Source: Paenibacillus pinihumi DSM 23905 = JCM 16419 (GTDB taxonomy: Bacteria; Bacillota; Bacilli; Paenibacillales; Paenibacillaceae). From it: a stretch of DNA of 64,000 nucleotides. The stretch's first letter is position 1. Each line of letters begins with the position of its first letter. The stretch spans positions 190,494 through 254,493 of the forward strand of contig NZ_KE383867.1 in the NCBI RefSeq assembly GCF_000422505.1. Direction: 5' to 3'. The notes beneath the pieces are model-generated. The model was not told the origin of the DNA. It did not search any database and was given only the letters and a program-made list of their open reading frames with translations. Position numbers and translations under genes: made by a program. Shown here one piece after another: positions 50,235 through 56,187 of this stretch.

Positions 50235-50528
50235 ATGAAATATGTGAACGCAGATGTTATTTTTCCGGAAGAATTGCTGAAGGAAATTCAGAAGTATATA
50301 CACGGCGGGATGGTTTACATCCCCAAACCTGAAGGTACGCGCAAGCCCTGGGGCGAGAATTCGGGCAGCAGATTGTATCTGCAAGAGCGAAATCTCGATA
50401 TCCGCCGAAAATATTCGGAAGGGTCTACGATTGCTCAACTGGCGGAACAATTCTGCCTTTCGGGCGAAAGCATTAAAAAAATTATCTATTGCAAGAAAAC
50501 AGATACTGTCAAGTCACACCGGAGCTAA
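50235..50528 (+). CDS. CD3324-like small helix-turn-helix protein
   Basis: 97 residues; AAGGAGCG before ATG. MKYVNADVIFPEELLKEIQKYIHGGMVYIPKPEG is split here by family blocks KYVNADVIFPEELL and GGMVYIPKPEG, followed by RNLDIRRKYSEGSTIAQLAEQF and LSGESIKKIIY, a Mor/trp-repressor-like HTH. Found in many spore-formers; likely DNA-binding, target unknown. A terminator overlaps its last codons. Confidence 0.8.
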   Translation: MKYVNADVIFPEELLKEIQKYIHGGMVYIPKPEGTRKPWGENSGSRLYLQERNLDIRRKYSEGSTIAQLAEQFCLSGESIKKIIYCKKTDTVKSHRS

Positions 50529-50548: not shown

Positions 50549-50602
50549 ATTTGCATATTCCCCACACCATATCCAGACGGCTTTTGGCAGCTGTAACTGG
50601 CG

Positions 50603-50628
50603 CACGGTCCTTCGGGCCGTGTTTTTTG
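50603..50628 (+). terminator. Orphan terminator
   Basis: CACGGTCC-ttc-GGGCCGTG hairpin (one G-T pair) then TTTTTT, about 60 bases after the previous terminator and with no gene between. Confidence 0.6.
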
Positions 50629-50809
50629 CGTTCAGGGTTATTTTGGATGCATCATCCGTTAACAAATTTACAATGTGGATACAAGTTTGAAATAAGTATT
50701 TGATTAAATACATACATGGCTTTAATACATGCTTAAATAGAATGATTTCCAATCATTTTGCAACAATAAATATAAGCAAGACTTACTTTGTGAATTGGGA
50801 TGTGCTGAC

Positions 50810-51997
50810 GTGAAACATAAGGCCGTTATTCTGGGCTGTAATTATTATATTGGCCTGAGTACAATTCGTTGTCTCGGCATATACGGGATTCATACAGTAG
50901 CGGTAGACTATTCGGCTGAACAAGCTTACGGAGCCCGATCTAAATATTGCTCGGAGCACTTGATTGCTCCGCATTACAAGGAGGAGAAGAAAAAGTTTAT
51001 CCGCTTCCTGATCGATTATGCCAGCAGGCAAAGTCTGCCTCCGGTACTTATTCCCTGCCATGATGCATATGTGGAAATTATCGACGAGCATTTGGCGGAA
51101 CTCAGGCAGTATTATTTGATCCCGCAGACGAAGCAGGGGCTGTATACAGAAGTAATGAACAAGGATACCCTCCATCTTGTGGCTGTACAAAATGGTGTTC
51201 CCGTGCCGGAGACAGTACGTCCAGGCGAGGAGCATTTTTTCGAAAAAATTGAGAACATTATTCACTATCCGTGCATCGTCAAGCCTGTAGATTCTCCTGC
51301 TTTTGTGGCTTATTTTCGGCGCAAGCTGTTCAAGGTACATAACCGGGAGGAGTTGACCCGGGCATTAAATGAAGCTGAGCGTGCGGGGCTGGAGGTCATT
51401 GTGCAGCGTATCATTCCGGGCTTCGACGATCATATGTACACTTTCGATGCCTATCTCAACCAGGATTCCAAAGTGACGCATTGGGTCAGTTGCCGGAAGC
51501 TCCGCCAGTATCCGATTAATTTTGGAGCTTCGGTCTATACCGAGCATCATCAGGTTCCTGAACTGCTTGAAATCGGGGGCGAATTTTTGGAGCGGATTCA
51601 GTGGAAAGGCTTTGCGGAAATTGAATTCAAGAAAGATGCGGATACCGGCCAATTTTATCTGATCGAGGTGAATGTGCGCATTACCAATTTGAATGTTCTG
51701 CTTCATCAGGTGGGAATGAACATTCCGTACATTACGTATTGCGAGTTGACGGGGCATGAGGCTGTTCCGCCCTTCAGCTTGCAGCAAAGCCAAAATCGCG
51801 TCTTCCGCTATGCCTACGAGGATCTGCTGGCGATTCGGGATTATATCAGGACAGGCCAGCTTTCACCGGCTCAAGTGGTCCGTTCCCTGTTCAGGCCAAA
51901 AGCGAGTGCTATATGGGACTGGAATGATCCACAGCCTGCTTTCGCCTATATGGGGATTGTACTGGGCAAAATTCTGAAGAAAGTGCGCAGGGGCTAA
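50810..51997 (+). CDS. ATP-grasp carboxylate-amine ligase (D-aspartate ligase-like)
   Basis: 395 residues, COG3919-like ATP-grasp. N-terminal Rossmann part VILGCNYYIGLSTIRCLG, then PCIVKPVDSPAF (ATP-binding Lys), VIVQRIIPG, GFAEIEFKKDADTGQFYLIEVNVRITN (metal-binding Glu-x-Asn). D-Asp ligases of lactic acid bacteria that build peptidoglycan side chains belong to this group, and an aspartate racemase, MurE paralogue and AsnB follow in the same direction. GTG 50810 is chosen; the in-frame TTG 50795 is the alternative and neither has a strong site. Ligation of D-Asp is inference from the neighbours. Confidence 0.8.
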   Translation: MKHKAVILGCNYYIGLSTIRCLGIYGIHTVAVDYSAEQAYGARSKYCSEHLIAPHYKEEKKKFIRFLIDYASRQSLPPVLIPCHDAYVEIIDEHLAELRQYYLIPQTKQGLYTEVMNKDTLHLVAVQNGVPVPETVRPGEEHFFEKIENIIHYPCIVKPVDSPAFVAYFRRKLFKVHNREELTRALNEAERAGLEVIVQRIIPGFDDHMYTFDAYLNQDSKVTHWVSCRKLRQYPINFGASVYTEHHQVPELLEIGGEFLERIQWKGFAEIEFKKDADTGQFYLIEVNVRITNLNVLLHQVGMNIPYITYCELTGHEAVPPFSLQQSQNRVFRYAYEDLLAIRDYIRTGQLSPAQVVRSLFRPKASAIWDWNDPQPAFAYMGIVLGKILKKVRRG

Positions 51998-52038
51998 ACA
52001 ACTATGACACAAGCTGCTTACAAAAGGAGGTCCGCGAT

Positions 52039-53541
52039 ATGTGGTTGTCATCCATCGTTGCCGGTCTAAAATTCAATCAACTGCAGGGCAGTCTGCAGGT
52101 GGAGGTGTCGTCCATTGCCTTTGATTCAAGGGAAGTGACGAAGGGCAGCATTTTCGTTGCGATTGCCGGTTTCGAAACGGACGGGCACCACTATATTCGC
52201 CAGGCGATTGAGCGGGGAGCAGTTGCAGTCGTATTGGAAAAGGAAGCCGAAGTTAAGGACGGCGTCGCTGTGCTGATGGTACAGGATTCACGGGATGCGC
52301 TGGCCCAAATCTCGGCTGCTTTCTACGGTGACCCGACGGCGGATATGAATTTGACCGGAATTACCGGAACGAACGGCAAAACATCCATTACGTTTATGAT
52401 TCAATCCATACTGGAGCAGGATGGCCGCTCGGTCGGGTTAATCGGCACGATGGGCAGCATGATCAAGGGAAACGCTCTTCAGACACGCAATACGACACCG
52501 GAATCTCTGCATCTGCAACGGCTGTTCTTGCAAATGCGCGATGAGGGTGTGGATGATTGTGTGATGGAAGTATCCTCCCACGCCCTAAGCTTGAAGCGCA
52601 CCGCATATTGCCGGTTCCGTACAGGCATATTTACGAATTTGACACCCGATCATCTGGAGCTCCATCAATCCATGGAAAGCTATTTTGAGGCCAAATCGCA
52701 GTTATTCGAGATGACATCTGAAGCCAATATCATTAATGCGGACGACAAGTACGGGCAGGTGCTGCTGCGCAGGCTTGGCAGCCGTACGGCAAAACTCATA
52801 TCTTACGGCATTCATAACGCTAGTGATGTATACGCGACGCAAATTCGGACATTAGAGGGCGGAACGACGTTTATGGCACATACACCGGCAGGGGAGATCT
52901 CCATCCGGATTCATTTTCCCGGCATGATTTATGTCTATAATGCGCTGGCGGCTATTGCATTTGGAGTCAGCCGCGGCATTAGCCTGACCGCCATTCAACA
53001 AGGTATGGACCAGCTTGCCGGAATTCGCGGCCGTCTGGAGACGGTCTATGAGGATAACGACAATAAAGTCATTGTGGATTTCGCCCATACCGAAGACGGT
53101 CTGGAGCAGGTTCTTGCGACGATTCGTTCTTTTTCGGATGCCAGGATCATACTGGTGTTTGGCGTATATGGGGCGGAAGGCATGCACGGGGAGCGGAAGC
53201 GCAGAGCGATGGGCAAAATCGCGGGGACCTATGCGGATCTGTCCGTTGTCACATCGGACAACCCCAAGCACCAGAATCCCGCCCGTATTATCCATGAAAT
53301 TGTCAGAGGCGTGAAGCAGGCCGGGGGCATGCATCATTCCTTCGTGGATCGCAAGGAAGCCATTCATTTTGCGCTGGATCAATGCCAAAAGGGAGATGTC
53401 GTGCTCATTGCCGGCAAAGGCCATGAGACCACGCAAATCATTGGAAGCACAGCACTGCCGTTTAACGAGAGAGAGATTGTACAGGAATTTATGTCTTCCA
53501 GGTATGAGGCAGAGGCCGAACTGATGAAGTCCGTGGATTAG
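52039..53541 (+). CDS. MurE-like UDP-MurNAc-peptide ligase with non-standard substrate motif
   Basis: 500 residues, Mur ligase three-domain fold; AAAAGGAGGT before ATG. DSREVTKGSIFVAI (UDP-binding N domain), P-loop GITGTNGKTS, NTTPES, MEVSSHAL, FTNLTPDHLE, carbamylated Lys in FEAKSQLF, GIRGRLE, FAHTEDGL, and GKGHET. The third-residue selector, DNPR in diaminopimelate enzymes, here reads SDNPKHQNP, so the amino acid added may not be meso-DAP. A genome of this type normally has its own murE in the dcw cluster, so this is likely a specialised paralogue acting with the D-Asp genes around it. Confidence 0.88.
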   Translation: MWLSSIVAGLKFNQLQGSLQVEVSSIAFDSREVTKGSIFVAIAGFETDGHHYIRQAIERGAVAVVLEKEAEVKDGVAVLMVQDSRDALAQISAAFYGDPTADMNLTGITGTNGKTSITFMIQSILEQDGRSVGLIGTMGSMIKGNALQTRNTTPESLHLQRLFLQMRDEGVDDCVMEVSSHALSLKRTAYCRFRTGIFTNLTPDHLELHQSMESYFEAKSQLFEMTSEANIINADDKYGQVLLRRLGSRTAKLISYGIHNASDVYATQIRTLEGGTTFMAHTPAGEISIRIHFPGMIYVYNALAAIAFGVSRGISLTAIQQGMDQLAGIRGRLETVYEDNDNKVIVDFAHTEDGLEQVLATIRSFSDARIILVFGVYGAEGMHGERKRRAMGKIAGTYADLSVVTSDNPKHQNPARIIHEIVRGVKQAGGMHHSFVDRKEAIHFALDQCQKGDVVLIAGKGHETTQIIGSTALPFNEREIVQEFMSSRYEAEAELMKSVD

Positions 53542-53575
53542 ACTTTAAGTACGAGGGGAATGTGAGGGAGAGATT

Positions 53576-55477
53576 ATGTGCGGTTTTGCAGGCTTTGTAG
53601 ACAGCCCGTCCACACTCCATCCGGAGAAGACCATTAGGGCCATGATGGACACAATCGTACATCGCGGGCCGGATAGCGGGGGCATCTATGCCGGGGAACG
53701 GGCGGTTTTTGGTTTTCGCAGGCTGAGTATTATGGATTTGACTGCCGGGGGCAGCCAGCCCATGTACAATGAAGACCGGAGCTGTGTGCTTGTTTTTAAC
53801 GGGGAAATATACAACTATGCGGAACTGCGGAAAGAGCTGCGGGGAAAAGGGCACCGATTTACAAGCCAGACAGACAGCGAGGTCATTATTCACGGCTATG
53901 AGGAATACGGAGTGGGCATTCTCCAGCGGTTAAGAGGGATGTTTGCATTCGCCATTTGGGATGACAAACGTCAATCTTTGCTTCTGGCCCGTGATTTCTT
54001 TGGCATCAAGCCGTTATATTATTCCCGGCACACCAAGGACGGGTGCCTGCTGTTCGGTTCAGAAATCAAGTCCTTTATGGCCCATTCCTCCTTCATTAAA
54101 GAGCTTAACAAGGATGCTTTGAAACCGTATTTGACATTTCAATATTCCGTGCTCGGGGAGACGTTCTTTAAAGGGGTATACAAGCTGGAGCCGGGACATT
54201 TCATGCTGTATAGCAATGGTGAGCTTGAAATCAAGCGTTATGCCGAGGTGCAATTTGATACGGTGGAGGAAACACTGGATTCGTACAGGCAGCAAATTCA
54301 ACAGACATTGCGCGAGTCAGTGAAAGCGCACCGGATCAGTGATGTGAAGGTTGGCTCTTTTCTCTCCGGGGGTGTGGATTCCAGCTATATCACGGCGCTG
54401 CTGATGCCGGATAAGACATTCTCCATCGGATTTGAGTCGTATGAGGGCAGTTTTAATGAGACTGGGCTGGCACAAGAACTATCAGATCAGCTTCATATCA
54501 GCAATTATAAAGAAATGCTTAGTGCAGAGCAGTGCTTTGAGAAACTGCCGGACATTCAATATCATATGGATGAGCCGCATTCCAATCCTTCGTGTGTGCC
54601 GCTATATTTTCTGTCAGGGCTAGCGAGCCGCCATGTCACCGTCGTTTTGTCCGGAGAAGGGGCCGATGAACTGTTCGGAGGATATGACGGATATGAGCTT
54701 ACCCCGGCAATGAAGACGTATTCCCGGCTGCCCTTTGTCGTCCGTCGAGTCACATCCAGGCTTGTCAAAGACCTGCCCAAGGGGCGCATTAGCACCTTCC
54801 TGATGAGGGGAGGCCAGACGGTGGAGGAGAGATTTATCGGGCAGGCAAAGGTCTGGGATGAAGCAGAGGCACAAGATCTGTTGCAGAACGATTATAAGCA
54901 GGGGCCTTCTGTAAGGGATATTACCAGTCCATATTTCCAGGAAGTAAAGGACAAGGATGATCTGACAAAAATGCAGTATCTCGATATGAAGCTGTGGCTG
55001 CCGGGAGATATATTGCTGAAGGCAGACAAGATGAGCATGGCTCATTCGATCGAACTGCGCGTCCCCTTCCTTGACCGTGCGGTTATGGAGCTTGCGGGCC
55101 GCCTGCCCTCGGGTCTGCGGGTTAAGAATGGCGAGACCAAGCGGGCGCTTCGTTCAGCCGCCAAAGACTACCTCCCGGAAGCCTGGGCGAAGCGCCCAAA
55201 GGTCGGCTTCCCGGTACCGATCCGGCACTGGCTGAGAGAGGAGAAATATTATCAGATACTGAAGGAGCACTTCGAATCCGGGACAGCAGCGATGTTTTTT
55301 CATCCGAAGCCGCTATTGAAACGTTTGAATGACCACTACAGCGGCAAAGCTAATCATGCGCGCGAACTGTGGACCGTCTATGTATTTTTGGTGTGGTACA
55401 AGCAATTTTTTGAAAGCAGCAGCAGACAGGCTGTGAGTAGCAGCGGACAAAACAGCCGGGAGGAGGCGCTGGTATGA
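53576..55477 (+). CDS. asnB: Asparagine synthetase B-type glutamine amidotransferase
   Basis: 633 residues, full length. N-terminal class II glutaminase with Cys2 (MCGFAGFVDS), RGPDSGG, FNGEIYNYAELR; C-terminal synthetase with PP-loop SFLSGGVDSSYI, LSGEGADELFGGYDGYE, and PFLDRAVMEL. Transfers amide from Gln to an activated carboxylate. In peptidoglycan systems AsnH/AsnB paralogues amidate D-Asp or DAP; among a racemase and ligases this is the likely job. TGA/ATG overlap with the racemase gene. Confidence 0.92.
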   Translation: MCGFAGFVDSPSTLHPEKTIRAMMDTIVHRGPDSGGIYAGERAVFGFRRLSIMDLTAGGSQPMYNEDRSCVLVFNGEIYNYAELRKELRGKGHRFTSQTDSEVIIHGYEEYGVGILQRLRGMFAFAIWDDKRQSLLLARDFFGIKPLYYSRHTKDGCLLFGSEIKSFMAHSSFIKELNKDALKPYLTFQYSVLGETFFKGVYKLEPGHFMLYSNGELEIKRYAEVQFDTVEETLDSYRQQIQQTLRESVKAHRISDVKVGSFLSGGVDSSYITALLMPDKTFSIGFESYEGSFNETGLAQELSDQLHISNYKEMLSAEQCFEKLPDIQYHMDEPHSNPSCVPLYFLSGLASRHVTVVLSGEGADELFGGYDGYELTPAMKTYSRLPFVVRRVTSRLVKDLPKGRISTFLMRGGQTVEERFIGQAKVWDEAEAQDLLQNDYKQGPSVRDITSPYFQEVKDKDDLTKMQYLDMKLWLPGDILLKADKMSMAHSIELRVPFLDRAVMELAGRLPSGLRVKNGETKRALRSAAKDYLPEAWAKRPKVGFPVPIRHWLREEKYYQILKEHFESGTAAMFFHPKPLLKRLNDHYSGKANHARELWTVYVFLVWYKQFFESSSRQAVSSSGQNSREEALV

Positions 55478-56187
55478 TAAGCTCCACACTTGGCGTATTG
55501 GGCGGAATGGGGCCGAAGGCTACGGCGGTCTTCATCGAACGGATTGTTGAACACACAGCTGCGAAGCAAGACCAGGATCATATCAATATGGTTGTGTTGA
55601 ATCATGCTGCGCTCCCTGACCGGACAGAGGCAATCGAAAGCGGGAACTATGACAATTTTACTGATGCCATTCATAGGGATTTGAAGCTGCTGGAGCAGGC
55701 GGGTGCGGCAAATATTGCAGTTCCCTGCAATACCTCGCATTTTTTCTATGGGCAGATGCAGCAGATGACTTCTGTCCCCATCATTCATATGGTGGATGAG
55801 ACAATTCGGACAGTCAGGGAGACAGACAGTTCAATTGAGAGGATCGGGTTGCTGGCAACGAACGGAACGGTCAAAAGCGGAGTCTACGCTAACAGTTGTG
55901 TTGAATATGGTCTGGATCTGGTCGTTCCGCCAAATCAGCTCCAACGGGAGATATCGGAAATCATTTATGAGCAGGTCAAACGCAACGGGGATTTGAATGC
56001 TGCCGGTCTGGTCCACATTATAGATCAGTTGATAACAGACTACAGGTGTGACCGGGTTATTATAGCCTGTACGGAATTATCCTGTATTCCATTGCCAGCC
56101 GAGCAGGGGCAACATGTGGTGGATGCCATGGAAGTTCTGGTGAAGCAGTCCATTTTGCGCTCCGGAGGGATATTAAAAGCTATTTGA
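55474..56187 (+). CDS. racD: Aspartate/glutamate racemase family enzyme (aspartate racemase)
   Basis: 237 residues, Asp/Glu racemase fold. LGVLGGMGPKATAVFIERIVE is split as GVLGGMGPKAT at the N-terminus; the two catalytic Cys are in VPCNTSHFF and IACTELSCIP. GGMGP is typical of aspartate rather than glutamate racemases. Start overlaps the asnB stop, so D-Asp production is coupled to the amidotransferase. Terminal gene of the cluster; together they can make D-Asp, ligate it and amidate it to D-Asn. Confidence 0.88.
   Translation: MISSTLGVLGGMGPKATAVFIERIVEHTAAKQDQDHINMVVLNHAALPDRTEAIESGNYDNFTDAIHRDLKLLEQAGAANIAVPCNTSHFFYGQMQQMTSVPIIHMVDETIRTVRETDSSIERIGLLATNGTVKSGVYANSCVEYGLDLVVPPNQLQREISEIIYEQVKRNGDLNAAGLVHIIDQLITDYRCDRVIIACTELSCIPLPAEQGQHVVDAMEVLVKQSILRSGGILKAI

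Follow-up and report, generated by a model that had tools for sequence, protein, structure and literature searches.

A conserved ligase, MurE and racemase gene association in Paenibacillus pinihumi: a candidate accessory cassette for peptidoglycan precursors

The four-gene locus

The stretch of DNA analysed here (the window, 64,000 nucleotides) belongs to contig C5 of the 6.76-Mb genome of Paenibacillus pinihumi DSM 23905 = JCM 16419 and contains, at positions 50810-56187, four consecutive open reading frames (ORFs) that encode an ATP-grasp ligase, a paralogue of the peptidoglycan ligase MurE, an AsnB-type amidotransferase and an Asp/Glu-type racemase (Table 1). A cluster of these four genes had been proposed from the sequence of the window, and it is borne out by the succession of the ORFs on one strand, by the protein families to which they belong and by the conservation of their association in other genomes. 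The four genes probably constitute an accessory peptidoglycan-precursor cassette, in which a non-standard third residue of the stem peptide would carry D-aspartate (D-Asp) or its amidated form, D-isoasparagine (D-iAsn).

The genes are tightly packed, with spacings of 41, 34 and -4 bases, the last value corresponding to a 4-base overlap between the AsnB and racemase ORFs. The longest ORF of the ligase comprises 400 residues and starts at TTG 50795. Nevertheless, the alignment favours GTG 50810 as the start codon, because most rows of an alignment of 14 ligases begin near the corresponding residue.

Table 1. Features of the cassette and its upstream flank in the window
Feature	Position	Strand	Length (aa)	Basis
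ATP-grasp carboxylate-amine ligase, candidate D-Asp ligase, own clade	50810..51997	+		ORFs, domains, tree, alignment, structure model
MurE paralogue, DNPK class, candidate third-residue ligase	52039..53541	+	500	domains, motifs, tree
Glutamine-dependent amidotransferase AsnB, AsnH-like, candidate for conversion of D-Asp to D-iAsn	53576..55477	+	633	domains, identities
Asp/Glu-type racemase with both catalytic cysteines, candidate for D-Asp supply	55474..56187	+	237	domains, alignment
Terminator-like hairpin 5' of the ligase, possible upstream limit of the operon	50602..50622	+		terminator scan

Conservation of the association

The conservation of the neighbourhood was surveyed in the best 80 of 140 relatives retrieved by a scan with the ligase alone, which come from Paenibacillus, Cohnella, Cytobacillus, Neobacillus, Halobacillus, Ornithinibacillus, Virgibacillus, Oceanobacillus, some Clostridia and others. 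A MurE homologue adjoins the ligase in 79 of the 80 loci (the exception is L036) and a racemase in 77 (the exceptions are L036, L043 and L027, whose contig ends there). Thus, a dedicated MurE, which the original prediction regarded as unusual, is instead the rule in this ligase family. Since these loci were fetched by the ATP-grasp protein alone, ligase, MurE and racemase are associated more than chance would allow; among distant ATP-grasp loci (L091-L118, n = 28, about 1.5 kb of flank), a MurE gene is found in none and a racemase gene in six.

The ligase is present in all 22 searched genomes of the Halobacillus genus and in 9 of 11 of the Ornithinibacillus genus (G443 and G447 are devoid of it). 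Elsewhere its distribution is patchy, comprising one of seven genomes in the genus of the window, 25 of 51 in a Paenibacillus genus and 10 of 36 in the genus of L028, and no other listed genome of the window's family has a match in the class sample (398 genomes). Second ligase paralogues, 50-56% identical, occur in 10 of the 51 genomes of a Paenibacillus genus, and neither MurE nor racemase was found in the 16 kb around each of three standalone paralogues (L178, L179 and L180; 51-54% identical).

The MurE paralogue and its two classes

The MurE paralogue contains the three Mur ligase domains and scores 473 bits with TIGR01085 murE (cut-off 257), and it also passes the NF001126 model of diaminopimelic acid (DAP) ligases (545 against a cut-off of 373). 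The TTPES, EVSSHAL and AKSQLF motifs of MurE enzymes play a role in acceptor use, and the arginine of the GGDRD motif also has a functional role. According to a published account of the family, DAP-type enzymes carry DNPR, the Asn and Arg of which bind the free carboxyl group of DAP while the Asp, together with Glu-468, binds the amine (in Escherichia coli, Arg-416 contacts the carboxyl group and Asp-413 and Glu-468 the amine), and the Lys-type MurE of Staphylococcus aureus carries DNPA (PMC3829189).

Among the MurE sequences of the window and 79 loci (n = 80), DNPK is present in 29 and absent from 51, and two classes, K and O, can be distinguished. Class K contains DNPK in place of DNPR, keeps GKGHE and replaces the GGDRD loop by one that is three residues longer, whereas DNPR, GGDRD and GKGHE are all lost in class O. 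The window enzyme, a member of class K, exhibits GAEGMHGER at the position of GGDRD and DFAHTED for DYAHTPD. In a subset of 24 sequences, it is 48-73% identical to eight other K members and 29-33% identical to 15 O members. The O members, which come from Halobacillus, Ornithinibacillus, Cohnella, Sediminibacillus, Paenibacillus and Clostridia, share 54-84% identity with one another. Each class makes up one side of its own starred branch in a quick tree of 46 rows that includes DNPR enzymes, with a long branch (L149) flagged beside class O. Because TTPES, EVSSHAL and AKSQLF are retained in the window enzyme, and class O carries TTPESLDL, EVSS and a K in the corresponding position, a UDP-N-acetylmuramoyl-dipeptide is a plausible acceptor.

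MurE seems to have been swapped repeatedly while the ligase and the racemase stayed in place, given that at least eight changes of MurE class map on the ligase tree (79 of the 80 loci plus the window, leaving aside L035, with L036, which has no MurE, and L075 unclassed), that Paenibacillus harenae DSM 16969 (L018) has class K and strain CC479 (L072) class O with upstream gene families in common, and that the Lentibacillus locus L075 carries both classes.

All 20 genomes searched contain at least two MurE-like genes at E 1e-30, one of which (L128-L147) is of the DNPR type in every genome. The window's genome has two DNPR-type genes besides the cassette gene. One of them, its third MurE (L003, G000:C7:266214-267695), has neighbours that by eye do not resemble wall genes. 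Elsewhere in this genome (L006, G000:C21), Ddl, a MurF paralogue and an alanine racemase were recognised by eye in a row, possibly an alternative D-Ala ending or a glycopeptide-response set.

The ATP-grasp ligase

In lactic acid bacteria, the ATP-grasp ligase AslA, RacD and AsnH are described as building D-Asp/D-iAsn bridges, and racD of L. lactis as lying within the aslA operon (PMC4155827). The window ligase contains a Dala_Dala_lig_C domain (31 bits, cut-off 24), and its structure was modelled (predicted local distance difference test score, pLDDT, 92.3; predicted template modelling score, pTM, 0.89). The 50 structural matches listed for this model are all ATP-grasp enzymes by title (Z 24.0-27.8; likewise with Foldseek), including 2pn1 (Z 27.8, root-mean-square deviation (rmsd) 3.3, 299 aligned residues). 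A profile of the ligase matches carbamoyl-phosphate synthase, carboxylases and D-Ala-D-Ala ligases of solved structure. As the matches of the model are ATP-grasp enzymes in general, the predicted fold alone leaves the substrate unspecified. Four residues (K163, E291, N293 and R295), which we take to be of catalytic type, are invariant across 49 sequences.

A ligase tree was built by a quick method from 61 rows, with long-branch warnings and without an annotated AslA sequence, so that calling the comparison clade AslA-type is a presumption based on an adjacent racemase in six rows, taken as aslA-racD. The 32 cassette rows of this tree (29 of the 80 loci, the window, L090 and L119; L098, a fusion of 826 residues, was excluded) lie on one side of a branch (99*), and the 16 AslA-type rows form another set (100*). 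Orthology of the ligase with the AslA type, tried as an explanation, was rejected on the basis of this tree, which, with its long branches and presumed label, places the ligase in its own clade; its identity to the presumed AslA-type ligases is 20-23%. P. nanensis and P. paeoniae have a second ligase, which groups in the AslA-type set and is accompanied by a C39 peptidase, AsnB and a protein resembling FemX.

A profile built from ten AslA-type ligases was run on 21 genomes. Strong members were found in three of them (G403, G411 and G412; 463-654 bits). In the three genomes of Halobacillus and the two of Ornithinibacillus, no protein scores higher than the ligase of the cassette (122-143 bits). 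Since no AslA-type enzyme was found in these five genomes, the cassette ligase is the best candidate for a D-Asp ligase there.

The racemase and the amidotransferase

The racemase matches both Asp_Glu_race (142 bits, cut-off 31) and asp_race (195 bits, cut-off 93), and its nearest solved relative is the Asp racemase 1jfl (E 1.4e-38). Both catalytic cysteines are present in 16 of 16 aligned racemases, with PCMT and TCNT variants; a stricter cysteine pattern missed 20 of 73 rows, being too strict for these variants.

AsnB activity is defined by Cys-2, the glutaminase and synthetase domains and the SGGVDS loop. All of these are present in the window AsnB, which scores 545 bits with asn_synth_AEB (cut-off 267); a sequence pattern covering the N-terminus and the loop matched 25 of 34 AsnB rows. 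The best AsnB of five genomes with AslA-type ligases is 45-61% identical to that of the window over the full length, and in four genomes with an adjacent aslA-type ligase and racemase the value is 50-61%. In the class sample, AsnB proteins at least 50% identical occur in 19 genomes besides the window's, and the next matches are 48% or less. An ATP-grasp relative (E 1e-10 or better) is present in 18 of these 19 genomes vs 68 of 397 overall (Fisher p 3e-14), although kinship inflates this value. The window AsnB is, thus, AsnH-like and a candidate for the amidation of D-Asp. AsnB genes lie beside both MurE classes (12 of 28 K loci and 11 of 50 O loci), and amidation of D-Asp therefore fits better than amidation of DAP.

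A putative accessory precursor pathway and its alternatives

From gene content, conservation, clade structure, motif changes and co-occurrence, we infer the substrates, products, order of steps and time of use of a putative pathway. The racemase would make D-Asp, the MurE paralogue would add a non-standard third residue to the stem peptide, the ATP-grasp enzyme would couple D-Asp onto the side-chain amine of this residue, and AsnB would then convert D-Asp to D-iAsn by amidation. The ordinary ornithine/D-Asp wall of Halobacillus and Ornithinibacillus may be built by an equivalent core that contains the other MurE class, while in the host of the window the cassette may supply a further wall precursor in addition to the usual DAP precursor. 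This reading is supported by the adjacency of MurE and racemase to the ligase, by the presence of the ligase in all searched Halobacillus and most Ornithinibacillus genomes together with the walls reported for these genera, by the AslA-type profile results in five of these genomes, by the motif changes of the window MurE, by the co-occurrence of AsnB with ATP-grasp relatives and by the structural match of the ligase to PylC.

Several observations weigh against this interpretation. The co-occurrence of AsnB with ATP-grasp relatives is confounded by kinship, as 15 of the 19 AsnB genomes belong to one family (f4), and the 68 genomes with an ATP-grasp relative include some whose relatives are not of the AslA type. 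Moreover, a downstream AsnB on the same strand accompanies the ligase in only 23 of 80 rows, window included, and is absent from the 9.8-kb locus of the closest relative (L009). The ligase lies outside the clade of racemase-linked ligases, a single-sequence search of the PDB found no solved relative of it at 0.001, and one Halobacillus genome (G400) has an extra, weak match to the AslA-type profile (99 bits). The racemase also passes, narrowly, the cysteate racemase model CuyB (197.9 against 190). Furthermore, class K retains the D, N and P, a positive residue and GKGHE, which makes meso-DAP a conceivable substrate, and we are aware of no genus of class K in whose wall D-Asp has been demonstrated, although no systematic search was made.

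The retention of DNP, a positive residue and GKGHE is also the starting point of a rival explanation that we consider unlikely, in which meso-DAP is the residue added by the class K enzyme and the ligase attaches D-Asp or D-iAsn to it, forming an A4-gamma-like side branch in a DAP wall that hydrolysate tests would report as plain meso-DAP. The fetched K-class genera of which the wall is known to us, namely Paenibacillus, Virgibacillus and Oceanobacillus, have DAP walls. Oceanobacillus is described as A1-gamma, and meso-DAP walls of A4-gamma type are on record in Dermabacteraceae (PMC4062624). The contacts of Arg-416 with the carboxyl group of DAP and of Asp-413 and Glu-468 with its amine in E. 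coli (PMC3829189) are also in keeping with this explanation. However, a third DAP ligase would be redundant in a host with two DNPR-type genes, the GGDRD loop is lost in class K, and the same slot is elsewhere occupied by class O, in which the DAP motif has wholly disappeared. The K-class bearer Paucisalibacillus globulus DSM 18846 (G404), moreover, falls in the Ornithinibacillus genus.

The original prediction also considered a muropeptide-like metabolite and a role in spores, and neither fares well. A soluble metabolite or signal in place of wall material would agree with the patchy distribution in the window's genus and in a Paenibacillus genus, but it is made very improbable by the presence of the ligase in every Halobacillus genome searched, by the FtsX-like and M23 peptidase-like genes seen by eye downstream in Halobacillus loci (the M23 family recurs in 28 loci) and by the window itself, where no export or biosynthetic genes were recognised by eye beside the cassette and the ORFs between 46 and 62 kb do not resemble a natural-product cluster. 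Most of the named organisms with the cassette come from spore-forming genera, in keeping with a cassette dedicated to spore-specific peptidoglycan (cortex or germ wall); nevertheless, we give this explanation the lowest probability of all. The ligase is patchy in the genera sampled and finds no match in the other listed genomes of the window's family, it is universal in the searched Halobacillus, whose cells, save H. campisalis, reportedly have a non-DAP wall (PMC10868198), and 79 upstream regions show no excess of sporulation-type promoters over shuffled sequences with the crude patterns used (sigma E, 20 vs 19.3; sigma G, 0 vs 0.9; sigma F, 1 vs 0.45; sigma K, 1 vs 3.7; sigma H, 0 vs 1.4).

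Relation to reported wall types

Which cross-link is formed depends on the third residue of the stem peptide, and this residue also influences the recognition of the wall by hydrolases and immune sensors. The wall of Halobacillus is of the L-Orn-D-Asp type, A4-beta denotes an ornithine-based wall, and Cytobacillus has meso-DAP. L-Orn-D-Asp is described as an infrequent type in Bacillus (PMC9781867), and H. campisalis as containing meso-DAP, 'unlike other Halobacillus' (PMC10868198). Ornithinibacillus is assigned to A4-beta and Oceanobacillus to A1-gamma, the latter assignment being based, according to the same source, on chromatography of hydrolysates for DAP and on inference from kinship (PMC4062624); a hydrolysate test of this kind would miss a D-Asp branch. 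The link between cassette and wall type is not a simple one, and the reported wall cannot be read directly from the presence of the cassette, because class O MurE also occurs in loci of Cytobacillus and of Cohnella, the latter described as meso-DAP (PMC11668882).

A broader proposal can be advanced tentatively, and we hold it to be somewhat more doubtful than not. Some Bacillota classed as meso-DAP may be able to switch on a second stem-peptide pathway in which MurE is exchangeable and which the routine DAP test hides. Its conserved core of ligase and racemase, in many cases joined by AsnB, would be combined with either of two remotely related classes of MurE. It would form a wall branched with D-Asp or D-iAsn on another third residue, which would replace or accompany the DAP wall, and class K may add a third residue not yet known at that position. 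If DAP-type Bacilli do have a second, D-Asp-based precursor pathway, wall type would not be fixed per species, which is directly testable. The comparison also singles out genes that may build the ornithine/D-Asp walls in Halobacillus and Ornithinibacillus. The literature search covered open-licence papers, among which we found no description of the cassette, no wall data for cassette-bearing Paenibacillus and no paper assigning genes to these ornithine/D-Asp walls.

Neighbouring genes

Upstream of the cassette, the window encodes a CD3324-family protein with a weak Mor match (50235-50528), and the terminator-like hairpin lies between the two. Such sites are no commoner in the region than in shuffled sequences (5 found, 6.4 expected), and the promoter and terminator scan as a whole gave counts like those of shuffles. 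Positions 50678-50716 of the window and the region 5' of L009:636 in the closest relative have in common the succession GATACAAGTTTGAAATA, GTAT and ATACATACA, a possible operator.

A C39-type peptidase family is found in 25 loci, between AsnB and the racemase in 21 and in a second AsnB/AslA-type cluster in three, and none was seen beside the window's cassette. The protein (e.g., L012:12681-13745) has an N-terminus that is hydrophobic by eye and is a candidate hydrolase of the modified wall; both members that were scanned also contain a SpaA/prealbumin-like domain. The second cluster (L020:12451-17189, L039:11580-16805 and L040:11549-16776, minus strand) adjoins the cassette in three Paenibacillus and comprises AsnB, an AslA-type ligase, a FemX-like aminoacyl transferase and the C39 peptidase, possibly for a bridge of D-Asp plus an L-amino acid. 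Downstream of the cassette (e.g., L051:12319-14658), an FtsX-like protein (15 loci, Halobacillus) and a coiled-coil M23 peptidase (28 loci) were recognised by eye.

Comparison with known systems

The parallel with the RacD/AslA/AsnH system, which had been drawn for the window from the outset, stands as the likeliest functional one, with an AsnB that is AsnH-like, and is not borne out as regards the orthology of the ligase. In lactic acid bacteria this system forms an L-Lys-D-Asp/D-iAsn bridge. Both systems contain a racemase, an ATP-grasp ligase and an AsnB-type amidotransferase, whereas the window cassette differs in its separate ligase clade, its dedicated MurE and the DAP-type MurE that the host has retained. 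The putative wall cassette of Halobacillus and Ornithinibacillus shares an orthologous ligase (62-66% identical) and the order of the MurE and racemase genes that come after it. However, its MurE belongs to class O and is about 30% identical to that of the window, the Halobacillus loci have no AsnB, and those of Ornithinibacillus have only a 37-40% identical AsnB some kb upstream.

Compared with the canonical DAP-adding MurE, the window enzyme is alike in its three domains, TTPES and EVSSHAL, and departs from it in DNPK, in the longer loop at GGDRD and in DFAHTED. Finally, PylC couples a D-amino acid to the side-chain amine of lysine, and the title of structure 4ffm names L-lysine-Ne-D-ornithine. 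PylC has the ATP-grasp fold of the window ligase (4ffr against the ligase model: Z 25.1, rmsd 3.1, 294 aligned residues), although at 13% identity it is one of many ATP-grasp chains with a similar Z.

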